64,000 nt of DNA from Verrucomicrobiota bacterium (GTDB taxonomy: Bacteria; Verrucomicrobiota; Verrucomicrobiia; Opitutales; UBA953): assembly GCA_003569205.1 (NCBI GenBank), contig BGOK01000003.1:1-64000 (forward strand), in the 5' to 3' direction. This document shows positions 3,001-23,920 of the stretch, piece by piece. The stretch's first letter is position 1. The number at the start of each line of letters is the position of its first letter. The notes under the pieces were generated by a model. The model was given only the letters and a program-made list of their open reading frames with translations, was not told the DNA's origin and did no database searches. The translations under genes and the position numbers were made by a program.

Positions 3001-6000
3001 TCGGTGGCATCGCCCTCGAGCTGGCGGGCTTCACGCTCACCAAGACGGGCAGCAACACCATCGCCATCGATGGCCCGATCGTCGCCGAAGGTAACCTCAC
3101 GGTGGCCCAGGGTAAGCTAAGCATCCTCGGTGGTACCACGGTCTTGGCCGGTACGACCCTGCCGGGCTTGATCACAGTCAGTCGGGCGCCACCTTGGAAC
3201 TCGGTGGCAGCGTTAGCTCCTTCGGCTTCACCCGGGCGGTCAACCTCCTGACTGGTTCGACCTTGGCCACCACCGCGAACTCCGCGATCTCCACGGGCTC
3301 GGCCATCACGGTGCGGGCGCCGTCACCCTTAATATTGGCGCGGGTGGTTCGTTCAACCCAGGCCGTGGCCATCACGGGCACCGCTAACCTGGCGAAGACC
3401 GGTTACGGCCGTCTCATCTTGGCTGCCTTGGTCGATAACGATATCACCGGTAACCTCACCATCACTGAAGGTAACGTCCAGGTCTCCGATTCGCTCGGCC
3501 TCCCGAGCGGTACCATTACCCTCACGGCTCAGCCTGGCGCCGACGTTAATCGCCGCACCCGCCTCGAGCTCGGCACCGGCGTCACGGTGGCCAATAACAT
3601 CGTCATCAATGGCCATGCGGCTGGCAGCCTTGTCGGCACGGGTGCCGTCATGCTGACCACGAGCACGGACATCGCCACGGTTTCTGGTAGCATCACCTTC
3701 AACGCGGGCGTCACCTCGGGCGGCAGTTTCATCTCGGCTGTCGACGATACTGGCACCATCGCCGCCACCGGTTACCTCGCCTTGACCGGCGACCTCATCG
3801 CCGGCACCGCGCAGCCGACGGTCCGTAAGGGTACGCTCCTCCTGAACCCAACGGGTACGGGCTCGAGCTACTCCCTGTTCACCATGCAGGAAGGCACCCT
3901 GCGCCTCGGTAAGAATAACGCGCTGCTGACCTCTGCAGAAATCCTCCTGGGCGTCTACGGGGCCGGCAGCTCGGTCGACCTGAACGGCTTCAGCCAAGAC
4001 TTCATCAAGGTTACCAAGGGCACCTTAGGCGCCACCATCACCAACACCAACACCACCACCATGGGTGTGGCGAACTTCACGAACACCGTTGAAACCACCT
4101 ATGCGGGTACCCTCGCCAATGGCGCAGTCGGCCTCGGCCTCGTTCGCCTCAATAAGACCGGTACGGGCAACCTCATCCTGACCGGCGTCAACACGCATAA
4201 AGACGGCACCTTCCTCACCACTGGCACGTTGGAACTCCGCGGTACCACCATCTTGGCCGCCAATACGGCCGTCGACGTCGCGGCGGGTACGACGCTGAAG
4301 ATCACCAACGCCAACGCCGACCTGACGATGGCCGCCAACATCACTGGCTCGGGCACGGTGCGCATCGACAGTAACATCTCGGGTGCGGCAGGCGCCCGCG
4401 GGGTGACGCTCTCCGGCGACAACCGCGGCTTTACGGGAACGTACATCCTCGAGCCGACCGCTTCGGGTATTTCGACCCCGAATACCGAACGTATCATCGT
4501 CACGAACGGCAATACTTTCGGTGCGGCGAACGTGATTATTAAGGATCGCGCCCAGGTCTGGATGCAGGGCGGCACTTACACCAATAACTTCACCATCACC
4601 GGTTGGGGCTTCGGCGATTCACAAGCCGTCGGTGGCACCCCAGCTCTCGGCTTGAACCTCCCCAACTACGCCGCGGCGGGTCAGGGTGGTATCGGGGCCT
4701 TCCGCTTGAACGCCAATACCATCGTCACGGGCACGGTTACCCTCGATGGCGACGCCAAGGTCACGGCTTATGGCGCTACGGCGAGCCTCAATGGCTCCTT
4801 GGGCACCACCAACAGCACCGACCGCCTCATCATCGGCGGCGGCGGTAGCGCGACCACTATCATCCTCGGCGGCACGAACAATGTCGGTACCAACGCCCTC
4901 CGCGACATCTGGATTAATTCTGGTGGTGGCACTAGCAGCGCACAGCTGACCATCGGCGGTGGTACCGCCGCCGGCACGCTCGGCACGGGCAAGGTCACCC
5001 TCTACACCGACGCCACCCTTACTGGCGTCGCCGTCCTGAATATCAGTCGCACCGATGGCTACACCATGGAAGCCGGCCAGCTCGTCGAAGCCGTCGCCCC
5101 GGTCGGCTTGTCGACGAACATGTCGAAGGCCGAATTCCGCGCCAACACCGCCGGCACAGGCCTGACGCTCAACGGCGCCCAGATCATCCTGTCTAACCTG
5201 ACGAACGCGGGCGGTAACTTCCGAGTCGCCACCGAAGTCGATGGCGCGATCGTGAACATCGACGCGGGCTCGCTCGTCAAGGTGAACGTGATTCAAATCT
5301 CTGAAGCTGCTAATATGGGTGGTACGGTCAACCAGACGGGCGGTATCGTCCAGCAGTTCGGTTCGACCTCCATGCGCGTCGGCCATTACGCGGGTCGCGT
5401 CAGCACCTACAACCTCTCGGGCGGTAGCCTCGAGATGGTCAACCCGGCCCCGGGTTCCGCTCCGGCGGGTGGCGCCGAGCAGGCCGGTGGTATCTACGTC
5501 GGCGTCGACGGCGTCGGCGTCTTCAACCAGACCGGCGGTTCCATCAAGACCCCGTGGATGGTCCTCGACAACCGTGGTGCCAACGCGGCCATCGACGGTA
5601 TCGTCTCCAAGTATAGTCTCTCCGCTGGCACCTTGGAATTCACCGCGGGCACGGGCCTCATCTCGAATAACCTCCTCACGGGCACCGCTGCCTGGTCGGG
5701 CGGTACGATCCGTAACGCGGCGCCAAGCTCCAACGTCGCCATCAACACGAACATCGTCGTGACTGGCACAACCGCGACGCTCGACACCGTCGACGCGAAC
5801 CGCGGCTTCGTCTTCAACCGTGAAGTCACGGGCGGCGGCACGGTGACCACTTCTGGTGGCGGTACCATCTTCGTGACGACGGCCGCGACACAGACCTTCG
5901 ACCTCGTCATGGCGGGCACCAGCGGCTTGACCAAGCAGGGCACGGGTACGACGACCCTCATCGGCAACCAGACTTACTCCGGCCCGACCCTCGTCAGCAC

Positions 6001-9000
6001 GGGTACGCTGAGCCTCGCGGGCAATATCCCGAACTCCGACCTCTCCGTCTCAGCTGGTGCCAACCTGCAGGGTCTCGGTACGGCTAAGTCGATCACCTTC
6101 GGTAACTTCACGTCGTTCTCGGCCGACCCTTCGGCCAGCTCGATCCTCACCGCTACGAACGCCTTCAGCGTCGCCGCGGGCGGCCTCGTCACGGTCAACC
6201 TCCTCGGTGGCCCGGCCACGAGCGCGCCGTTCGCGATCCTGAACTACGGTTCGACCACCGCCACCGGCGCTAACTTCGCCCTCTCCGGTGCTGGTAGCTA
6301 CCGCAGCGCCCCGACCTTCAACGTCGGTGCCACCAGCACCACCTTGGCCCTCGGCTTTGGTGAACTCGTCTGGACCAACGGCGGCGCTAACGCCTCGTGG
6401 GATGCGGCCTCGAATAACTTCTTTAACATCGGCACCTCCCTGGCCGACAAGTTCATCTTCGGCGACATCGTGACCTTCGATGATTCCCTTGGCGTATCGC
6501 AGGGCGTCAACTTCGTGGGTAACATCCGCCCAACGACGACCATCGTCAATAACTCGACCTACGATTACACCCTGACCTCATCCGCGGGTAATACCCTCGG
6601 CGGCTATGGCCAGGTCATCAAGCGCGGCACGGGCGTCCTGAATATGGCTGGCGTCGCCAACACCTTCACCGGTGGCACGCTCCTCAGCGCCGGTCGCATC
6701 AACGTCGGCGCTGCGGGCTCGCTCGGCACGGGTCGCATCACCCTCGGTGCCACCGACACCGCGGCGAACAACGTCTCGCTCTACATCTCGGGTACGCGCG
6801 TCGTGGGCAACCTCACCAACGCTATCCTGGTCAGCAGCAACGCTGGTGGCGTAGTCAAGATTGGTTCGGACGTCAGCGTCACTGGCGCCGGCGTGATGGG
6901 CTTCAGCGGCATCACGCTCCAACGCGACCTCATCCTCGACTCCAATGCGGCCGATCGCACGGACTACACCGGCATCACCGGTACCGGTAATGTGACCTTC
7001 GTCGGCACGGGACGCACGATTTTGGGTATCGGCTTGGCGAACACCTTTACGGGTAATGTGACCCTCGCTGGCACGGGCCGCGTCCAGATTGGCGCCGCCA
7101 CCGGTGGTACGCTCGACGGCATCCCGGACAACGCCACCGTCACCATCAACGCGGGCAGCGAACTCGCCATGTCGGCGGGCGCTGAAATCATCGGCGGCCT
7201 CTCCGGCGCCGGCAATATCACCACGAATTCACAGGCTGGTACCCTCACGGTCGGCACGGGCAACGCCACGAGCACCTTCTCTGGCGTCATTGGAGACACC
7301 GTGGGCTTCGCCCTCGGCCTTAATAAGGTCGGCACGGGTAGGCTGACCCTCTCGGGCGCCAATACCTTCACCGGCGCGGTCCAGGTCGGTACCCTCGTCG
7401 CTCCAGGCGGCACCCTCGAACTCACGGGCGCTAATGCCTTCGGGGCGATGACGGTCTTCGCCGGCATGGTCAACGTCAGCGCTTCCCAGAACAATACCGG
7501 CAACATCACGCTGAACAACGGTGCGACCCTCGACGTCCTCGCCGGCGGTCAGCTCTTCAACTCGGCCTACAACAATACGGCCATCGTCACCGTGAACGCC
7601 GGGGCCACCTGGCGCATGGTCAACCTGGCCTACGGTTCAAACGCAGGCGGTCAGTTATCCGATTACGCTGCTCGTCGCGTGCTCAACGGCGGCACGATGA
7701 TCGTCACCGGCGACACGCAGGACGTCGGCAATAACTTCACTGTCAATGCGACCACCGGCGGCACCTTCCGCTACGCCCCGACCAACGTCGGCCAGACGCT
7801 CACCTTCTCCGGCAACGCCAACGGCGATATCGCGCTCAACGGCCCGCTCGCCCTCCAGGTCGTCGGCGGCACCCTCGCTATCAACGAGAACATCGTTGGT
7901 GCGGGTAGCATCACGAAGACCGGTAACGGTAATCTCACCCTCGGTGGCGTGAATACCTTCACGGGCAACCTCGTGATTTCCGAAGGCGCCTTCAATATCA
8001 ACGGCGCCTATGCGCTCGGTCGTGGTACGGTCTCGCTCCCAGCGGGCGTCACCCTCGACAACACCAGCGGCGCCGACGTCAACGTCGCGACCGCCACGGC
8101 CATCAACCTCGGTGATGGCGTCCTGAACTTCACCGGTACGAATTCGCTGAGCCTCGGCTACGGCACCGTGACCCTGCCGGCGAACACGACGGTCAACGTT
8201 ACCGCCAAGACCCTCTCCTTGGATGGTCCGGTCGCCGGCGCCTTCGGTATCACCAAGACGGGTGCCGGCACGCTCGCGCTGCATGCTCCGAACAACACCT
8301 TCACTGGTGGCGTCACGGTCAACGCCGGCCTCCTCTCCATCGGCAAGTATGTGACCGGCTCGGCTGGCACGGGCGCCGTGGTCTTCAACGGGGGTGGCAT
8401 CGCCTTCGACGACTACCAAGCCCTTCGCACCTTCGACCTCGCGGGTGACTCGCGTGGTGCCGCCGTCCCAGCCACCACCGTCATCTCGGCGAACTTCAGT
8501 TCGATTCACAACACCACGGGCGACATCGTCCCCCTCAACACCACCCGTGGTTTCGTCGGTAAGCTCTACCTCCCAGCGGGTACCTGGAACTTCCAGGAAG
8601 CCTTCGACGACGGCGTAGCCCTGAAGGTCAACAACTCCGTTATCCTCAATAATGCCGCCTATAACGTTAACACGACGGGCAGCTTCACCGCCACCACCGC
8701 CGGCTGGTATGACATCGACCTCCGCGTCTACCAAGGCACGGGCGGTACCGGTGCCGTCGCGCCCTCGCTGTATGGTGTCGGTATCGCCAATGGCGCCGGC
8801 GCTTATGTGCCGTTCACGACGGCTGGCCTCGCCAGCTTGGGCGTCATCGCGACCGTGGGCACGACCCCGGGCTTCAGCTACGCCGGTGATATTTCGCTTC
8901 TCCAGAACGGTTCGATCAGCTCGACCAACCTCGGCAACTACGACTTCACGCTCTCTGGCGTCATCTCCGGTCCGGCCGACCTCACCAAGCTCGGTGCGGG

Positions 9001-12000
9001 TACGATTGTCCTCACGGGTGCCAACACCTACACCGGTAAGACCATCATCCAGGAAGGCACGCTCGCCCTCACCAGCAGCGCCAACGCCACGACCCTTATT
9101 GAAGTCAACGGCGGCTACCTCCGCTTGGATTCCGCCACCGCCATCCCAGCCGGCGGCGTCGTCCTCAATGGCGGCGGCTTGAAGTTCAACCTCGGCGCCA
9201 CCACGGCGATCACGGTGAACAACCTCACGATCAACGCGGCGGCGACTATCGATACCACTGGCCTCGACGTGACCTTTGGCGGTCCGCTCGCGGGCACGGG
9301 CTCGCTGGTGAAGGCGGGCACGGGCACTACCCCGGGCACCTTGACCTTGGCGAACGGTTCGACCTTCGCTGGCACGACCACGATCGCCGGCGGCAAGCTG
9401 GTTATCGCCAACGACTCCGCCCTCGGCGCCGTCCCGGCCACCGCCACGGCTGGCCAGCTGACCTTCACGGGCGGCTCTCTCCAGACCACGGCTAACGTCA
9501 CCCTCGCCGACAATCGCGGTATCGCGCTCGACGTGAACTCCACGGGTCTCTTCCTCCCGGATGCGGCGACGACCCTCACGGTTAATTCCATCATCGCCAG
9601 CGGCACGGGCACGGGCACGACCAGCGGCAAGCTCGCCCTCGGCTCGGCCACCTCGGGTGCCATCATCCTGAACGGCGTGAATACCTACGCCGGTGACACC
9701 GACCTCCTCGGCAGCACGGTGACGATCGGTAACGACGGCGCCTTCGGTGCGGGCACGAACCTGAACCTCCCGACCGGCGTCACCGCCGCGACCCTCCAGT
9801 TTGCAGGTACCGCTACGGGCACGCTGACCAAGGTCGTCAACATCGTCGATAGCCTCGGCACCCTGACCATCGCGGGTGGTGCGAAGGACATCACCCTCAG
9901 CAGCGGCCTCACCGGCGCTGGCTCCCTCGTCCAGACGGGTTCGGGTAAGCTCATCCTCGGCGGCACGAGCCTCTTCGCGGGTGCCATCGCGGCCGATAAC
10001 ACCATCGTCCTGAATACCGCCACGGCGATTGCCGGGGGGAACACGGGCGCAACCCTGCGCTTCGGCTCCAGCCCGTCCTACGCTAACGCCGGCACGATTG
10101 TCTACGGCACGGGCGTGACCACGGACGTCTCCAACCTCCTCGGCGCAACCGCCATGCCGGCCCTCACCGTCGACACCGGTGCCAACAACGTCACCTGGGC
10201 TTCGGCCGTGTACGGCGCCTTTGTCCTCACTAAGAAGGGTGCAGGCGAATTGAACTTCGAAGGCCTTGATCCAATCCAAGCAGGCTCCGTCAATATCGCC
10301 GCCGGTACCTTGACCATGGCGAAGTCGACGTCCCTCAATGGCGTCGTCTCCTCTGGTGCCTTCGGGACGCCGGCCTTTGTTACCTTCACGGGTGATGCTA
10401 CCCTCAAGTATGCCTCGGGCATCACGACCGACGTCTCCAGCGTCTTGGTCTCCAACGTTGGCAAGACTGGCACCATCGATATCGGTGCCAACAATGTGAC
10501 CTTCGCAGGTGCGCTCTCGGGTGCAGGTAGCTTCGAGAAGATTGGTACTGGCACGCTCACGCTCGCCGCGACCAACGCCTTCACCGGTGGCTTCAAGCTC
10601 ACCCAAGGTACCTTGGAAATCGCCGGGGTCGACACCTTGGATGCTTCGACGGGCCTCGCCTTCACGGGCAATACGACGCTGAAGTTCGCCACGGGTAACA
10701 CCGACGATGTCTCTAATGGCCTGACGGTCGCCGCCACGAAGACGGGCACGATCGACACCAATGGTAACGACGTGAGCTTCGCCAACGCGATCGGTGGCAC
10801 GGGAGCGCTGATCAAGGCTGGTGCGGGTACGCTGACCTTGGATGCACCGACGACCCTCACGGGCGCATTCAATGTGAATGCCGGCACGCTCGCCCTCACC
10901 GCGTTCGGTGGTCTGGCCACCCCGTCGTCCATCACCGTCGGCACGGGCTCTGCTCTCGACACGACCGCTGCTCCTGGCTTCTCGCTCGCTACTGGCCAAA
11001 CCCTCTCCGGTCTCGGTACGGTCAACGTCGGTACCGCCAAGACGCTCACGATCGCCACGGGCTCCACACTCAACGCCACGGGCCTCTCGGTCACCGGCAA
11101 GCTCACGCTCGCTGGCACCTATGCGGCTACCCTCGGTGCCCCTGGTACCGCCCTAGCGCCGAATGCTGCTGCCCAGACCAACGTCAGCGGTAACGTCACC
11201 CTCGGTGGCACGCTCAGCCTCACCTCTAACGGTGCAGGCGCGGGTGCTTACCAGATCATTAATGGTTCGGGCACGACGACGGGTAGTTTCGCCACCATCA
11301 ACGTTGCTGGTATCAATAACGCCCTCCTCCACCAGGAGGTTATTGCGACCGCGGGCGTCACGGGCGTCAACCTCGTCCGCGTCGCCACCACGACCGGCAC
11401 GCTTCCGACGACCGTCAACTACGGCGCTATCCGTCCAACCGCCGCTGCCTTCAGCACGACCCTGAACTTCGCCAACACCACCACGGCGGACGGCTTCAGC
11501 GAAGCCCTCACGGGTTCGGTCTCGGCCAACGGCACGGGCTTCACGACCGCCGCTGCGGGCACGACGGGTGTCGTCACCCTCGGCCTCGACTCCCTCACCG
11601 CGGGCGCCAAGACGGGCAGCTCTATCGTCACGGTCTCCTCCGTCGGCGTGGGCACCTTCGCTAACACCTCGCTGGTCACCGGCACGGTGGCGCTCTCTGG
11701 TAACGTCTACGATTACGCGACGGCCACGATTGCTGATGCGACGCTCGCCTTCGGCAATGTCCACGTCGGTGCCACTGGCGTGACCCGCAATGTCTCGGTG
11801 ACCAACACCAAGGTCACCGACGCGGCCTACCAGGACAACCTGTCGGCGACGGCGACGGCGGTCACGGGTCTCTCGGTTAACACGCTCTCAGCCCTCGCGG
11901 CCGATACCTCGGGTAACTTGGTCTTCACGGCTGTGACCGGCACCGCTGGCTCGCTCGCTGGGGCCGTGACCTTCACGCTGAACTCGACGAACACGGTCTC

Positions 12001-14290
12001 GGGCCTCGACGCCAAGGCCCTCGCGACCACGGCCAACGTCACCACGACGGGCCAGGTTTACTCCGGTCTCTCCACCTGGAACGCCACGACCGGTTCGTGG
12101 GGTCGCTTCGTCTCGGGCTTCGGCACTAACTGGGGCACGAATCAGGGTTCGCCAGGTCTCGACGCGGCCTTCGCCAACGTCGACACGGCAACCTTCGATA
12201 ACACCGCCCTCACGAATGGTGCAACCGCGACGGTCAGCCTCGACGGCGCCGCTCCAAGCCTCAAGGCGATTACCTTTAACACCACGGGCGGCGGTTACAC
12301 CCTCGATGCTGGTTCCGGCGGTGCGCTCACCCTCGCTTCTGGTTTGGGCAACGCGGCCGTCACGGCCACCGCGGGTAATCACACCATCGCCACGGACCTC
12401 ACGCTCTCCACGGCCCTGGATGCCGTCGTCGGCACGGGCGCTAAGCTGACGCTTTCGGGCGCCGTCTCCGGCACCGTCGGCCTCGCGAAGTCGGGCGCTG
12501 GTACGCTGACGCTCGCAGGTAACAACTCTGGCTACACGGGTGCCGTCACCCTCGCTGCGGGTACCCTCGAGCTCAACTCCTTCAACGCGATCATCAACGC
12601 TTCCGCACTGAACGTCACCGGTAACTCGACGCTCCTTTACGGCATCGGTAACACGACGGACGTCTCGGCTAAGCTCGGCACCATCGCCGCGGGCACAACC
12701 CTCACGGTCGATACCAACGGTAATATCCTGACCTACGCCTCCACGATCACCTCGGCCGGTACCTTGGTGAAGGATAACTCCGGTACACTCATCCTCGGTG
12801 CAGCGAACAGCCTCACGGGTGCGCTCAACGTGACTGGCGGTTCCGTCCGCCTGACCAACGCGGGCGCCCTCGGTACGGCCGCTGTCACGGTCGGAGCGGG
12901 TTCCTTCCTCGACCTGAATACCCTTAACGCCACGGGTGCCGCGATCGTCCTCGACGGTGGTACGCTCTCCCGCACCTCGGCCTACACCGGCACGGTGACC
13001 TTCACCGCCGCCTCGCTCAATTCGGGCCTCCTCAGCCTGGCAGGCACGGCCAAGGTTGGCGTCCTCACTGGCCAGACGGCTGCCATCAACGGTGAGACCC
13101 GCGATATCGAACTCAACGGCGGTACGCTCTCGGGCCTCTCGAGCTTCACCGGTACGCTCATCGTGAAGTCGACGCTCGATGCCTCGGCGACGATCTCGGC
13201 CGGTGCCGTCACCCTTGATGGCGGTACGATCAACCTCCAGGGCCTGAACTCCACCAAGAGTCTCGGTTACCTCGCCGGCCAGCTCGCCAACGCCAGTGGT
13301 TACACGGGTAACGTCGAAATCCTCGGTGCCGTTACCCTCGCAACGGGCACGCTCGGTAACGGTGTCATCCAGGTCGGTTCGGGCGACACGGTAACCCTCG
13401 CGAATAACGGCCTGAATAACGCCATCGCCCTTTCGGGTGGTACGGTCGACTTCAACGGCAAGACCGCCACTTCGTCCATCGCTTACACCAACGGTACGCT
13501 GACCAACGCCACTGGCTACACCGGCGACGTCACCTTAGCCTCCGCTGGCTCCAAGACCCTGACCGCGGGCTCCCTCGGTTCGGCTCGCGTGATTACCCCG
13601 ACTGGTACGACCCTCGACTTCGCGGCTGGCTTCAACAACGCGGTCCGCAACACGGGCGGCGCGGTGACCAACGGTACTAACTACACGGGTACGATGGCCT
13701 ATGCCGGCGGCCAGTCCATTAACGTCACGGCCGACCAGGTGGCCAAGCTGACCTTCGAGTCAGGTACGACCGCTAAGGGTTCGGGTACGCTCACCGACCT
13801 CGGCTTCGCGGCGGGTTCGGCTTACACGATGAACATCAAGGACGGCGCCGGCGTCGCCGGGGTCGGCTTCGACTCCGTGACGGTCACGGGTGCGCTCAAC
13901 CTCGCATCGCTGTCCTCTGCCAACCGCATGACCCTGAACGTGGTCTCGCTCGATAGCACGAACGGCGTGGGTGGCAATATCGCCAACCAGACCTTCGCTT
14001 GGAATGACCCGAAGAACTTCACGCTCTTCACGTACGGCACGCTCAGCTTGGGCAACGGCGTGACGAATGTGGCCGACCTCTTCACGGTCAACTACGCCAA
14101 CTTCAAGGACAAGTATGGCGTCACCGCCCAGTCCGATTGGTTCACGGTGTCCAACGATAGCATCAACGGGGCCATCGTCCTCACCGCGATTCCTGAGCCT
14201 TCCACCTACGGCATGAGCCTCGCTGGCCTCGCCTTGGCCCTCGCCGCCATCCGCCGCCGCAATAAGCGGAAGGCCGACGCGGCCAAGTAA
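1..14290 (+). CDS. Giant autotransporter-associated beta-strand repeat (PATR-type) surface protein with C-terminal PEP-CTERM signal; 5' end outside window; intact frame 3194..14290, upstream part frameshifted
   Basis: Many repeats of the type 'GxGTLTLxGxNTYTGxTxVxxGTL' throughout. C-terminus IPEPSTYGMSLAGLALALAAIRRRNKRKADAAK is a PEP-CTERM motif plus TM plus basic tail. The same repeat type continues upstream to base 1 in alternating frames. Confidence 0.93.
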
Positions 14291-14341: not shown

Positions 14342-14777
14342 TGCGGCGGCTTTGCCGCCTGTCTCGAGGTAGGGTCAGCACTGCGTGCTGAGATGCAGGA
14401 GTACGGATTACGGAGTACGGAGTACAGAGTACAGAGGTAAAGGGGGACCGGTGGGCTAGGGGTGCAAAGGTGCAAAGGTGCAAATCGGCCTACGGCCTGT
14501 GCAAAGGTAAATACCCAAACAGGTAGAGCCATTCCCTGTCCGCCAACCGCCCGCCGCTATTTCCTTTATTGGTAGGGTCGTGGCTACGTGCTGAGATGCA
14601 GGAGTACGGAGTACGGATTACGGAGTACAGAGTACAGAGTATAGATTACAGAGGTAAAGGGGGACCGGGAACCGGAGGAAAAAGGGAATACAGGCTGCCC
14701 CTACCCGAGATAGAGCCATTCTCTATCCGCCAACCGCCAACCCCCAACCCCCAGCCCCCAACCCCTCTCGGCCAACC
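14342..14777. repeat. Intergenic mosaic repeat island 1
   Basis: Contains GGCGGC-TTT-GCCGCC, GGTAGGGTCAGCAC-TGC-GTGCTGA, the 47-nt GGTGCAAA module, degenerate GAGTACGGATTACGGAGTACAGAGTACAGAG repeats and a C-rich tract; modules shared with islands 2 and 3. Confidence 0.85.
14466..14512 (+). repeat. 47-nt module copy 1 (aaaggtgcaaaggtgcaaatcggcctacggcctgtgcaaaggtaaat)
   Basis: Identical to 18461..18507 and 22937..22983. Confidence 0.95.
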
Positions 14778-17417: not shown

Positions 17418-18329
17418 TTACCGCACGCCGGCTTGGGCGATGAGGGCGGCGAGTTGTTCGACTTCGGCCGGCTTGAGGTCAGTCAAGGGCGCACGGACGG
17501 GGCCGGCACTATGGCCGACAATGGTCGCCCCAGCCTTGATGATGCTCACCGCATAACCGGCGTTCTTATTACGGATCTCCAAGTAGGGCAGGAAGAAGGT
17601 ATCGAGCAGGCGGTTCTGCGTGGCGACGTCGTCCGCCGCGATCGCGTGGTAGAAGTCCATCGCTGCTTGCGGAATGAAGTTAAAGACCGCGGAAGAGTAG
17701 ACGGGCACGCCCATGGCCTTGTAGGCGGCGGCGTAGACCTCGGCGGTCGGGAGGCCACCGAGGTAGCTGAAGCGGTCGCCCATTCGGCGGCGGATCGAAA
17801 CCATGAGCTCGATGTCACCGAAGCCGTCTTTGTAGCCAATGAGGTTCGGGTTGTTCGCGGCGAGCTTCTCGAGGTGGTGCGGCTGCAGGCGGCAGACGTT
17901 ACGGTTGTAGACCACGACCCCGATTTTAACCGACTTGCAGACCAGGTCGACGTGCGCGGCGACCCCGTCCTGATTGGTCTCGGTGAGGTAGTGCGGGAGG
18001 AGGAGGATGCCCTTCGCACCGAGGCGCTCGGCCTCTTGGGCATATTGAATCGCCACGCGGGTCGGGCCACCGGCGCCAGCTAAGATCGGCACTAGCCCAT
18101 CACACGTATCGACGGCGGTTTTGATTACGGATGAATATTCCTTGGGCTCGAGGGAGAAGAACTCGCCCGTGCCACCGGCCGCGAAGAGAGCCGTGGCCCC
18201 GTAAGGGGCGAGCCATTGGAGGCGCTTGGCATAGCCAGCGGGGTCAAAATCGCCGTTCGCCGCGAAGTCGGTGATCGGGAAAGACAGGAGGCCGGAGGAT
18301 AGGACTTTCTTAAGCTCTGGGGGGGACAT
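17418..18329 (-). CDS. kdgD: 5-dehydro-4-deoxyglucarate dehydratase (DapA family)
   Basis: [29 protein letters not shown]...[14 protein letters not shown]...VVYNRN...[10 protein letters not shown]. The ORF-track start at 18584 runs into repeat island 2; the start at 18329 fits the family. Confidence 0.86.
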
Positions 18330-18460: not shown

Positions 18461-18507
18461 AAAGGTGCAAAGGTGCAAATCGGCCTACGGCCTGTGCAAA
18501 GGTAAAT
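18461..18507 (+). repeat. 47-nt module copy 2
   Basis: Identical to 14466..14512 and 22937..22983. Confidence 0.95.
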
Positions 18508-18547
18508 GCCAAAACAGGTTGGGGCGTGGCTACGCCGCGCCTGCATT

Positions 18548-18614
18548 GGGTAGGGTCGGGACTGCGTCCCGACATAGCAGGCAACTAGGTTGGCACGCAG
18601 TGCCAACCCTACCC
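18548..18614. repeat. REPIN-like inverted pair of GTAG-prefixed palindromes
   Basis: GGGTAGGGT (18548..18556) to ACCCTACCC (18606..18614), enclosing hairpins 18555..18573 (loop TGC) and 18588..18608 (loop GCA). Confidence 0.8.
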
Positions 18615-18738: not shown

Positions 18739-20283
18739 ATGCGCTTCCCCACGCTGCTTGCCCTGTTCGCGACTTTGGCCCTCACGGCCGCAGAGCGCCC
18801 TAATATCATCGTTATTTTAGCCGATGACCAAGGGCTCGGCGATGTCTCGGCCTATAACCCGAAGGGTAAAATCCCGACCCCCCATCTCGACCGCTTAGCC
18901 GCCGAGGGCATGCGCTTTACCGATGGGCATACGACGTCGGGGGTCTGCACGCCTTCCCGCTATAGCTTACTAACCGGGCGGTACCACTGGCGCACCCGCC
19001 TGCAGAGTGGCGTGCTGGGTGGCTATTCTCCTCCGCTGATTGCGAAAGATCGCCTGACCGTCGCAGGGTTCCTTAAGCAGCAAGGCTACGGCACGGCTTG
19101 CTTCGGTAAGTGGCACCTCGGGATGTCCTTCGCACTCAAGGCCGGTGGGGTCGCCGACGATAAAGGAGTCTTTGATGGCCCCGGCGCCAAGGTTGGCCAG
19201 GAAGTTAATTACGCCGCCGATATTAAGGACGGTCCGCTCGACCACGGCTTCGACCAATTCTATGGCATCAGCGCTTCGCTCGACATGCCGCCGTTTGTCT
19301 GGATCAAGGATCGGCGCACAACGGAGATTCCGTCTGCCACCAAGACGTGGCTTCGCTCGGGTCCAGCCGGCCCGAAGTTCGAAGCCATCGACGTGCAGCC
19401 GGGCTTGATCGATCAAGCCATGGCTTACGTCACGGCCCAGAAGCAGGCCGCCCCGCAGAAGCCCTTCTTTATCTACCTGCCGCTGGCCGCCCCGCACACG
19501 CCCATCGTTCCGACCAATGAATTCAAGGGTTCCAGCGGCCTCAACCCGTACGCTGACTTCGTGCGGCAGGTCGACGCAGACGTCGGTCGGCTCATGGCTA
19601 AGCTCGAGCAACTGGGTTTACGCGAGAACACGCTGATCGTCTTCACGGCAGATAACGGTTGCTCCCCCGCGGCCAAGATCGATGAGCTCCAAGCGAAGGG
19701 CCATGAGCCCAGCTATCTCTACCGCGGCCATAAAGCCGACATCTTTGAGGGCGGCCACCGCGTCCCCTTCATCGTCCGTTGGCCCGCCCAGGTGAAGCCT
19801 GGGAGCGTGAACCCGCAACTCATCGGACAGATTGATTTCTTGGCTACCTTCGCCGAGGCACTCGGCGTGCCCGTGCCGGCTGGTGCCGGTGAAGACAGTG
19901 TATCTTTTCTGCCAGCTCTACTCGGCCGCGAGGGTCCCCTCCGTCAGTCCATCGTGAGCCAATCCATCAACGGCAGTTTTGCGATCCGCGATGGGCAGTG
20001 GAAGTTGGCGCTCTGCGCAGGCTCTGGCGGCTGGAGCGTCCCTAAGCCCGGGTCTAAGGAAGAGAAAGGCCTGCCGGAATTCCAACTTTACGACCTAGCG
20101 ACCGACCTAGGAGAGAAGACGAACCTCGCGGCCCAGCACCCCGAGCGGGTTGTGGCCATGAAGGCCGCCTTGCAGGCGATGGTGGACCGCGGACGGAGCA
20201 CCCCGGGCCCCGCCCTGGCCAACGACGTCCCGTGGTTTTGGTCAAGAAAACCGGCAATAAGAAGCAGCAGGATAAGTAAGTAA
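18739..20283 (+). CDS. Secreted sulfatase (arylsulfatase family)
   Basis: Signal peptide MRFPTLLALFATLALTAAE, then RPNIIVILADDQGLGDVSAY and the sulfatase signature GVCTPSRYSLLTGRY. Extreme C-terminus possibly frameshifted near 20232. Confidence 0.92.
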   Translation: MRFPTLLALFATLALTAAERPNIIVILADDQGLGDVSAYNPKGKIPTPHLDRLAAEGMRFTDGHTTSGVCTPSRYSLLTGRYHWRTRLQSGVLGGYSPPLIAKDRLTVAGFLKQQGYGTACFGKWHLGMSFALKAGGVADDKGVFDGPGAKVGQEVNYAADIKDGPLDHGFDQFYGISASLDMPPFVWIKDRRTTEIPSATKTWLRSGPAGPKFEAIDVQPGLIDQAMAYVTAQKQAAPQKPFFIYLPLAAPHTPIVPTNEFKGSSGLNPYADFVRQVDADVGRLMAKLEQLGLRENTLIVFTADNGCSPAAKIDELQAKGHEPSYLYRGHKADIFEGGHRVPFIVRWPAQVKPGSVNPQLIGQIDFLATFAEALGVPVPAGAGEDSVSFLPALLGREGPLRQSIVSQSINGSFAIRDGQWKLALCAGSGGWSVPKPGSKEEKGLPEFQLYDLATDLGEKTNLAAQHPERVVAMKAALQAMVDRGRSTPGPALANDVPWFWSRKPAIRSSRISK

Positions 20284-20335: not shown

Positions 20336-22896
20336 ATGAAGGCCCCCCTTTCCCTTTACTTTACCGCCGTTTGCTTGTTGGCCGCCCCCGCCGCGTTCGG
20401 CCTCAACAAGGGCAACGCCGGGCCGGAGGAGGTCACGTTAAAATTCAAGCTCCCCCCGCCCCCGTGCTCTCGCCCGAAGAGGCCTTGAAGACTTTCAAAA
20501 TCGAAAAGGGTTTCCGCATCGAGCTCGTCGCGTGTGAGCCGATGATTCAATCGCCTATCGCCATTAGCTTCGACGATCAGGGCCGGATGTTCGTCGTCGA
20601 GATGCGTGGCTACATGAACGATGTGAACGGCGCCGGCGAGAAAGACCCCTCAGGGCGCGTGTCGCTGTTGGAAGACACGAAGGGCACGGGTCGCATGGAT
20701 AAGGCCACGGCTTTCGTTGACGGGCTCGTCATGCCTCGTTCCGTCCTCGCGGTGAACGGGGGCGCTCTCATTGGTGAATCCCCTAACTTATTTTTCTATA
20801 AGGACACCAAGGGCACGGGCGTCGCCGATGTGCGGACGGTCGTCGCGACCGACTACGGCACCCGCGGCGGTCAGCCGGAGCACATGGCCAACACGCCGAC
20901 CTGGGCGATGGACAATCGTATTTGGAGCGCGGGCTACGGCACGAGCTTCCGCCTTAACGCTGGTACTTGGCAGCGCGGGGCTGGCTTGGGCCGCGGGCAG
21001 TATGGCCTTTGTCAGGACGATGTGGGTCGCCTGTATTACAACTATAATTCCGACCTCCTCCGCACGGATCTCCTCCCAGCTGGCGCGTTTGCACGCAATC
21101 CACTCCTGCGCAATGTGACGAGCATCAATAGCCGCGTCGTTGCCGATCAGGCGGTCTTCCCAATCCATCCGACTCCTGGCGTGAACCGGGGTTACGACGC
21201 GAGCACCTTGCGACCCGACGGCACGCTGGCGAAGGCCACCGCGACGTGTGGCGCAGTCGTTTATCGGGGCGATCTCTTTGGCCTGGCTTTCCGCGGCAAT
21301 GCCTTCATTCCTGAGCCCGCTGCCAATGTCGTGAAGCGTATCGTGCTCACGGAGAAGGACGGCGTAGTGACGGGGGAGGCGGCCGTACCCGGTCAGGAAT
21401 TTCTGGCTTCGACCGATGAACGCTTCCGCCCCGTGCAGGTCGTCAACGGGCCCGATGGGGCGATCTATATCGTCGATATGTATCGCGGGATCATCCAGCA
21501 CCAGGGCTTCCTGACGCACTACCTCATCGCGAACATCAAGGACCGGAAACTCGAGCAGCCTGTAAACCACGGCCGGATCTGGCGCATTGTCCCAGAGAAG
21601 GCTACCCAGGTCGCTGCAGTGAAAGTGCCCGCGGGCACGGCTGCGCGCGTGGAGCTACTCCGTCATCCTTCGGGCTGGGTCCGCGATACCGCGCAACGCC
21701 TGCTGGTCGAGTCGGGCGATGCCGCCGCCGTCCCGGCCTTACGCCAAGTACTGAAGACACCTGGTTCCGCGCAGGCTTTGGCTCGGCTCCACGCGCTCTG
21801 GACGCTGGAGGGCTTGAACGCGCTCGACGCCGACAGCTTGCGCACGGCGATCAAGGATGCCGATCCCCAGGTCCGCGCCGCGGGGGTGCGGCTTGCGACG
21901 CCGGATCTCTTGCCGGACCTGATTGCCCTGACGGGCGAGCAGGAAGTCATCGTGCAGGCGCACCTCGCCATTCGTCTGGGTGCCGTTACTTCGCCCGAAG
22001 CGGATGTGGCTTTGGCTAAGTTACTCGTGGCTCATGGCCAAAATACCTTGGTCCGCGAAGGCGCCCTCACCGGCATGCGTGGCAAGGAAACCGTCATTGC
22101 CAAGCTCGTTGCCGCCCAGGCGACGAAGGTGAACGCCGCTGGGGCCAGCTACATCGTCGAAGCCCTCGCCACGCTGGTATCGCAGTCCGGCAAGGTCGGC
22201 CCGTTGGAGGACATGTTGAACCTCGCTGCCGCGGTGGACAATCCGGCCATGCGCTTGGCGGTGGTCCGTGGCCTTGATCGCGGGGGTCGCGATTCGAAAG
22301 CGAAGCCGACCAAAGGCACCGACAAGGGCAAGGTTGCCAAGTTACTCTGGTTGCCGGCCGCGCCGGCGGCGATGGCGAAGCTCTCAACTACCCTCACCGA
22401 CAAAGAGGGTGCGGCTGCTCTCAAGGGCTTGAATGAACGGGTGATGTGGGTCGGCAAAGCTGGTGCGCCGAAGCCTCCCGTGGTCGCGCCTTTAACTCCA
22501 GCGCAAGTCGCTTCCTTTGAGCGTGGCCGGACGATTTATAACGGCCTGTGCGCGGGGTGCCACCAGCCGCATGGTTATGGCCTCGATGGTTTAGCGCCGC
22601 CGCTCGTTGATAGTGAGTGGGTCCTCGGTAAGCCCGACATTGTGGCGCTCATTATCATGAACGGACTCGGCGGCCCGGTGAAGGTGAGCGGCCGGACGTG
22701 GGACCTGAGCATGCCGCCGATGGCGCAGCTCAACGACGAGGACCTCGCCGCTGTCGTGACCTATGTCCGCCGCGAATGGGAGCATACCGCCACGCCGATT
22801 GACACCAAGTTTGTGAAAACTCTCCGCGATCAATTCGGCACGCATGCTTCGTGGTCCGCCGACGAACTCCGCCCGCCCGCCCCCGCGAAGAAGTGA
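20336..22896 (+). CDS. PVC-type membrane-bound dehydrogenase / HEAT-like / cytochrome c fusion (frameshifted near 20450)
   Basis: Signal peptide MKAPLSLYFTAVCLLAAPAAFG from 20336, then frame change to the long ORF (FKIEKGFRIELVACEPMIQSPIAISFDDQGRMFVVEMRGY...). Heme motif CAGCH near the C-terminus. Confidence 0.88.
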
Positions 22897-22936
22897 GCGC
22901 GAGCGAAGCTCGCGAGGGGGCAGGTGGAAAAGGTGC

Positions 22937-22983
22937 AAAGGTGCAAAGGTGCAAATCGGCCTACGGCCTGTGCAAAGGTAAAT
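22937..22983 (+). repeat. 47-nt module copy 3
   Basis: Identical to copies at 14466..14512 and 18461..18507. Confidence 0.95.
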
Positions 22984-23030
22984 AGTAAAACAGGCAGGGG
23001 CGTGGCTTCGCCGCGCCTGTATCTTCGCGA

Positions 23031-23117
23031 GGTAGGGTCAGCACTGCGTGCTGACCTAGCGGCATCGAGTTAAAAGAAAGGCAGGCAACTAGGTTGGCAC
23101 GCAGTGCCAACCCTACC
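23031..23117. repeat. REPIN-like inverted pair of GTAG-prefixed palindromes
   Basis: GGTAGGGT (23031..23038) to ACCCTACC (23110..23117), enclosing hairpins 23036..23056 and 23092..23112. Confidence 0.8.
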
Positions 23118-23170
23118 TTCCCCCTAGCCAACCATACTCTAGCCCCCCTTGTCCCCCCGTTCGCTACCAC

Positions 23171-23920
23171 TCACTCAAAACTAAACTCACTATCCAAGGA
23201 CTCGGGGGGTGGGTCGTCGCCGGCGAGGATACCGCGCACGAAGAGTTCGCGGTGCTCAGGGCAGGGGCCCAGTCGTCGTAGCGCTTCGATGTGATCTGGC
23301 GTGCCATAGCCCTTATGACGGGCGAACCCGTATTCCGGATAGCGTTTATCCAATTCGACTAACATGCGGTCGCGTTCGACCTTGGCGACGATGGAGGCCA
23401 GTGCGATGGCCAGGCTCTTGCCGTCACCGCCCTTGATTGATTCATGGGCCCAAGCGAATGGCCGTAAGGGCAGGCCGTCGACGAGGACGAGCATATTGCG
23501 CTCCTCGGTGCGGCCAAAGAGTTCACCTTCCGTACCTGCGGCCGGGAAGAGTGCCGCCAGCGATCCTTGGGCTAACTGGGCGATACAGCGGGCCATCGCC
23601 ATCCGCGTCGCTCCGAGGATATTGTGCGCTGAAATCTCCAGCACCGAGGCCTCCGCCCAGACCGCGCGCAGTTTGCCTTCGGCGTGCATCTCTGCAATCC
23701 GCGTGCGGAGTTCGGCCCGCTTTTCCGGCGAGAGTTTCTTGGAGTCATTGGCTCCGGATAGTTTCCGTATCCAAGCCACTTCGCCGTAGAACCCTGCGTC
23801 GAGCAGCACGGCCCCCGCTACCACGGGGCCGCAGAGCGGCCCACGACCAGCTTCATCGACCCCCGCGATACCCGGACGACCGGCGCCGCGCTTACGGTCG
23901 AAGGATGCCAGCGACGCCAT
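23171..23920 (-). CDS. rnhB: Ribonuclease HII
   Basis: GIAGVDEAGRGPLCGPVVAGAVLL, NDSKKLSPEKR, RHKGYGTPDHIEAL motifs; start MASLASFDRK at 23920. Confidence 0.93.
   Translation of the reverse strand: MASLASFDRKRGAGRPGIAGVDEAGRGPLCGPVVAGAVLLDAGFYGEVAWIRKLSGANDSKKLSPEKRAELRTRIAEMHAEGKLRAVWAEASVLEISAHNILGATRMAMARCIAQLAQGSLAALFPAAGTEGELFGRTEERNMLVLVDGLPLRPFAWAHESIKGGDGKSLAIALASIVAKVERDRMLVELDKRYPEYGFARHKGYGTPDHIEALRRLGPCPEHRELFVRGILAGDDPPPESLDSEFSFE

Follow-up and report, generated by a model that had tools for sequence, protein, structure and literature searches.

The element studied here lies in a 64,000-nt window (the whole stretch of DNA that was analysed) of a Verrucomicrobiota genome, in a 410-bp gap between two divergent genes. 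Its left neighbour is a KdgD-like gene (17421-18329, - strand), an open reading frame placed in the dihydrodipicolinate synthase family from its sequence and with orthologues in 34 of the 55 genus genomes. Its right neighbour is a sulfatase-like open reading frame (18739-20283, + strand), around which synteny is common to genomes G017, G025, G031, G032 and G072. The original prediction placed two GTAG-tagged palindromes in head-to-head orientation at 18548-18614, and both the coordinates and the sequence are as claimed. Each half consists of GGTAGG, an 8-bp perfect stem and a TGC loop, with GTAG one base ahead of the stem foot. The left REP reads GGTAGGGTCGGGACTGCGTCCCGAC on the + strand at 18549-18573 (stem GTCGGGAC/GTCCCGAC; exact pattern match C3:18549-18573) and the right REP reads GGTAGGGTTGGCACTGCGTGCCAAC on the - strand from 18613 to 18589 (stem GTTGGCAC/GTGCCAAC; exact pattern match C3:18589-18613), this second stem being the commonest A stem in the host genome. 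A 15-nt spacer, ATAGCAGGCAACTAG (18574-18588), separates them. The perfect inverted repeat said to bound the pair was seen as its outer arms, GGGTAGGGT at 18548-18556 and ACCCTACCC at 18606-18614. The whole unit, which has no strand, was assigned to subfamily A of the repeat family described below from its sequence and the genome-wide family. Folded as single-stranded DNA, the 73-nt stretch reaches a predicted -23.6 kcal/mol and is more stable than every shuffle (z = -5.6), and a search of Rfam returned no family match for the element. Beside it, at 18517-18541 on the + strand, is a degenerate subfamily E hairpin (GGTTGGGGCGTGGCTACGCCGCGCC), recognised from its sequence, whose tag has changed from GGTA to GGTT; intact E copies are found elsewhere in the genome, on C8, C12, C15 and C33.

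Further REPs are present in the window. A single A-type REP corresponding to the left half alone is located at 14368-14392 (+ strand, one mismatch), and a degenerate REP (GGTAGGGTCGTGGCTACGTGCTGAG, 14571-14595, + strand), identified from repeat family D18 and its sequence, sits within a partial duplication of this copy. The second A-type REPIN of the window spans 23031-23117, again with no strand, and is composed of two exact matches, a + strand REP at 23031-23055 with stem GTCAGCAC and a - strand REP at 23093-23117 with stem GTTGGCAC. A second repeat, GGTGCAAATCGGCCTACGGCCTGTGCAAAGGTAAAT, is identical at 14477-14512, 18472-18507 and 22948-22983, that is, in each of the window's three REP islands. 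Its chance expectation is 0, it is without GGTAGGG and it is present in many genus genomes. Arrays of 7-base-like units (GGAGTACGGAGTACGGATTAC...) were also seen near the REPs (14398-14436 and 14601-14668) and recur in the same islands of the relatives G017, G020, G025 and G031. The window also contains a very long open reading frame (3194-14290, 3698 aa) with many GTLTLxG repeats and a C-terminal PEP-CTERM-like end (PEPSTYGMSLAGLALALAAIRRR); from these features its product looks like an autotransporter-type adhesin.

A motif search of the 2.23 Mb Opitutae genome identified the repeats as members of a family. With the stem bases left free, GGTAGGGTNNNNACTGCGTNNNNAC gave 52 exact matches and 97 matches at ≤2 mismatches, against one for the reversed pattern. 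With no pairing prefilter applied, the stems were fully Watson-Crick in 48 of the 52 exact matches, with several different stem sequences. A generic GGTAGGG hairpin pattern matched 151 times, against 0 for its reversed control; the motif is not there by chance. The existence of a dispersed family in this lineage, occurring as singlets and as inverted pairs, had been proposed from the window alone and is borne out by these 151 generic copies. Copy-by-copy inspection covered 238 kb selected around pattern matches, the source of all copy-level statistics, and distinguished at least five subfamilies (A-E). Subfamily A, with a TGC loop, includes the 18548-18614 element and has 46 strict copies in the host genome; B is GCGCGAC-TGC-GTCGCGT, C and D have the loops CGC and CAC, and E is GCGTGGC / GCAAGGC. 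In A, B and E, 29 of the 33 close same-subfamily pairs are head-to-head with GTAG outside (p = 5e-14 against 25%), and C and D are mostly singlets, with three close pairs, one of them head-to-head. Only 29 of 162 matches fall in ORF-like sequence, though ORFs span 85% of the stretches examined. The family thus has what defines GTAG REPs and REPINs: a 5' GTAG tag adjoining a short palindrome, inverted doublets with GTAG outside that behave as a unit, and a dispersed, high-copy and mostly extragenic distribution.

The limits of the unit could be read from pairs of copies. The copies at C10:78970 and C10:80527 are 97% identical inside and 27% identical in their flanks, and the A-REPINs enclosing an E-REPIN at C4:61174 and C33:7439 share 94% identity across 155 nt, their flanks being at 27-30%. 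Since near-identical copies have unrelated flanks, the copied unit is GGTAG...CTACC. The remaining high-identity copy pairs have one flank in common, as expected of BIME-like mosaics. E-REPINs are nested in A-REPINs at four places (C4:61174, C8:35152, C15:4843 and C33:7439). Two loci of the window were compared with relatives. At the 18548 locus, an A-REPIN built on different stems occupies this region in G017 and G032 (the spacer of the G017 REPIN, at the same place, is one base different), G025 carries other REPs and G072 none. At the 23031 locus, each of the four relatives compared has a distinct mosaic; part of the REP island there (22890-23205) is apparently inverted in G017 and G020. A clean empty site was found at neither of the two loci, as relatives carry scrambled, rearranged repeat mosaics at both and therefore offer no clean before/after pair. 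By these sequence comparisons, the two loci show fast turnover, but no clean insertion.

Genomes of the same genus encode a small HUH/Y1 gene family of ~150 residues bracketed by GGTAGGG hairpins, an arrangement known as a REPtron. Among the 69 RAYT genes with both flanks available, a GGTAGG motif lies within 250 bp upstream in 65 and on both sides in 53. The hairpin type is uniform within each RAYT clade. A-type hairpins flank L053 (G002), L093 (G026), L054 (G007) and L047 (G016); B-type hairpins flank L112, L113 and L145; C-type hairpins L106, L108 and L123-L125; D-type hairpins L058, L099-L102 and L105; and E-type hairpins L056, from G032, a close relative of the host genome. Relatives therefore have what is characteristic of GTAG REPs and REPINs, a cognate RAYT with the matching REP in its flanks. 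In 13 genes spread over several Verrucomicrobiota lineages, the TAG that ends the RAYT reading frame belongs to the GGTAGGG of the REP that follows (L053, L093, L109, L045, L139, L114, L199, L212, L203, L220, L218, L229 and L144); REPs directly downstream of a rayt stop codon have been reported earlier (PMC2817692).

The partner genes are closer to TnpA-REP than to the IS200/IS605 transposases. The closest PDB sequence is E. coli TnpA-REP bound to its REP hairpin (4ER8, E = 7e-15), with IS200/IS605 proteins at best at 1e-5, and the AlphaFold model (pLDDT 89) has 4ER8 as its best fold match (TM 0.74), ahead of all IS200/IS605 transposases. The NCBIfam model REP_Tyr_transpos (REP-associated tyrosine transposase) was matched by the three RAYTs scanned at E = 6e-20 to 2e-24; relative to its curated cut-off of 80 bits, the A-type (75) and D-type (72) proteins score just below and the third type (86) passes. 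An H70-x-H72 (HUH) motif, Y123 and the W-Q...H-R-x-R positions are invariant in 41 RAYT sequences, so the proteins have the HUH motif and single catalytic tyrosine of a RAYT. The W-Q / H-R-x-R block is the GTAG-contact region of these enzymes (PMC6006769, PMC8266576). W102, Q103, H109 and R112 are invariant in the same 41 sequences and D108 is present in 93%, and by motif these positions correspond to the GTAG-contact residues W94, Q95, E/D100, H101 and R104 of the E. coli protein. Across 67 RAYTs, protein identity correlates with the identity of the flanking REPs (Mantel r = 0.62, reached in 0 of 2000 permutations). RAYT and REP therefore travel and change together, which is not proof of recognition, as the shared ancestry of linked sequences contributes to the correlation. 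The REPs of a single RAYT clade retain their tag and hairpin tip but vary in the lower stem; by analogy, this fits the tag-and-loop recognition described for group 3 TnpA-REP (PMC8266576).

A cognate RAYT was not found in the host assembly (G000), which is 85% complete. A RAYT in the same genome is not a strict requirement for GTAG REPs and REPINs, and REPs without their RAYT have been described in Pseudomonas (PMC3686654). The only Pfam Y1 gene of the host, at C8:89259 (L001, G000:C8:87759-91037), is a longer, TIR-type relative. A frameshift splits it into overlapping ORFs of 171 and 136 aa, whereas its relatives carry a single ORF of ~330 aa, and its flanks are GGGGTCAGGCCGCTCC inverted repeats, not GGTAGGG. 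Its GGGGTCAG end matches the consensus GGGGWSAS, so it fits the TIRtrons/TIRYTs (PMC3733652). L001 was rejected as the REPIN partner because of these ends and the frameshift. In the absence of a detectable cognate RAYT, the host copies are either recently orphaned or served by a gene absent from the assembly. Over the 55 genus genomes, the median REP number is 47 in RAYT carriers and 12 in genomes without RAYT (p = 3e-4), and G000, G017, G020 and G031 are REP-rich without a cognate RAYT. For these, RAYT loss after expansion, trans-action by another RAYT and assembly gaps are all candidate explanations. The idea that A-type REP copy number tracks the A-type RAYT was rejected, no such relation being seen in the genus: strict A copies number 41-75 in G031, G000, G009 and G017, which are without an A-type RAYT, and 4-21 in genomes with one. 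The original prediction that the family belongs to a RAYT system is thus supported, the same hairpins flanking RAYTs in the genus (the Y1/RAYT gene so flanked that it called for exists in genus members such as G002, G026, G007 and G016), with the reservation that none was found in the host, as far as this assembly reaches.

Taken together, the bracketing of sister-species Y1 genes by the same hairpins, the closeness of these genes to TnpA-REP and the RAYT-REP co-divergence point to a true GTAG REP/REPIN-RAYT system. The 18548-18614 element is very probably a REPIN: two head-to-head REPs that together form a miniature, non-autonomous mobile element within the GTAG REP super-family, and we infer RAYT-type mobilisation for it. 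In the proposed mechanism, the RAYT (TnpA-REP, an HUH single-tyrosine enzyme) would recognise each REP in single-stranded DNA by its 5' GTAG tag and hairpin tip and would cut beside the hairpin, and the whole GGTAG...CTACC unit would then be copied or moved into intergenic DNA. Cutting, movement and trans-action are all presumed here.

The mostly intergenic position of the copies and their stable folds would also be expected of host regulatory hairpins, acting as bidirectional terminators or mRNA-stabilising structures and kept by selection. This is a very improbable reading, as the 18548-18614 element lies between divergently transcribed genes and has no T-run, orthologous sites vary in content among close relatives, near-identical copies occur with unrelated flanks and nested in one another, and transposase genes are bracketed by the same hairpins. 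Still less credible is that the repeats are a MITE of another class, the kind that has a DDE transposase, target duplications and terminal inverted repeats, or that they come from the resident TIR-type Y1 gene (C8:89259). The element does have inverted repeat ends and the genome does have a Y1 gene, but this gene is frameshifted and flanked by GGGGTCAGGCCGCTCC in place of GGTAGGG, the same hairpins as in the element flank RAYTs, and 18548-18614 shows no target duplication.

A more serious contender, which we regard as possible but not the likelier case, is that the repeats are relics of a REPIN-RAYT system that has died out in this lineage, the copies being kept only by inheritance, recombination and gene conversion. 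The four REP-rich genomes without a cognate RAYT would be explained in this way, as would the several degenerate copies in the window. Against it, tag and tip are unchanged among many copies, whose stems still pair, and repeat content at the two loci compared differs between relatives that are ~97% identical in KdgD protein. The 85% completeness of the assembly also weighs against it, since RAYTs sit between repeats, where assemblies break.

Within a REPIN, the two hairpins are rarely the same. Tag and hairpin tip are common to both halves, whereas the stems differ by compensatory changes, each stem still pairing internally; this feature was unexpected. At RAYT genes, 41 of the 42 distinct REPINs have non-identical halves. 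In the 11 of these REPtron REPINs with an 8-3-8 geometry, stem pairs 2-6 differ two-sidedly (in 3-6 REPINs per pair, never one-sidedly), pairs 7-8 never differ and pair 1 shows a one-sided difference once. In the host genome, heterotypic REPINs make up 10 of 11 in A, all 13 in E and only two of five in B. These counts do not represent independent events, since the copies share descent. When the halves of the heterotypic REPINs tested were made identical in silico, the long fold-back hairpin became 6-16 kcal/mol more stable; for the 18548-18614 REPIN, it went from -20.7 to about -36.5. In these models, unequal stems with the same tag and tip may weaken pairing between the halves and so favour the two-hairpin (clover) form that the RAYT could use. 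The long hairpin is still the more stable predicted fold even with unequal halves, and the proposed benefit is therefore a shift in balance, not a switch. We tentatively suggest, as an idea that could well prove wrong, that the mismatches of Verrucomicrobiota REPINs are deliberate: tag and tip would be kept and stems kept different by selection, countering a long hairpin that hides the element from the enzyme, with trans-mobilisation or rapid RAYT loss explaining the REP-rich genomes without RAYT. If true, deliberate mismatch would be a sequence-encoded tuning of mobility. The supplement of PMC3116915 proposed that REPINs switch between two folds, a long hairpin that is hidden and a clover that is active, and heterotypic stems make this idea testable. 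As sister species have gained or lost the transposase, what RAYT loss does to REPIN populations can also be compared directly.

The kind of element is already known, as GTAG REPs were placed in Verrucomicrobia, including Opitutus terrae, by Di Nocera (2013, PMC3733652). A literature search, with most subscription papers outside its reach, found no earlier report of REPINs in freshwater Opitutae, and the REPIN-RAYT system documented here in uncultured lake bacteria is large and comprises many families. Like this system, the GTAG REP super-family and its REPtrons (PMC3733652) have short, perfectly paired hairpins that carry a GTAG tag and a loop of 2-3 nt, form head-to-head dimers that keep GTAG on the outside, and combine several families in one genome with family-specific RAYTs. 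They differ in their hosts, here freshwater Opitutae (the hairpin sequences being compared as given in that paper's text alone), and phylum-wide RAYT-REP co-divergence and heterotypic stems were measured here. Among the group 3 REPtrons of Stenotrophomonas maltophilia and Marinomonas, which recognise tag and loop and cleave at CT (PMC8266576), the Sm REP has an 8-bp perfect stem and a 3-nt loop after GTAG, as here. In our elements, GTAG and the stem are one base apart, and it is in hairpin geometry (8-3-8) that the two were compared. The BIMEs of E. coli (y with z1/z2 REPs; PMC8266576) also pair unlike REPs in inverted orientation, but E. coli REPs have a bulged stem whereas the stems here are perfect. 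As in the REPINs of Pseudomonas fluorescens SBW25 (Bertels and Rainey 2011, PMC3116915), the inverted REP doublet is the replicating unit, is extragenic and RAYT-linked, and has long hairpin and clover as alternative folds. The SBW25 doublets were described as symmetrical, typically identical pairs, whereas stems differ in nearly all of the REPtron REPINs reported here. To what was known of GTAG REPs, this adds the families, the RAYTs that go with them and the heterotypy measured here.
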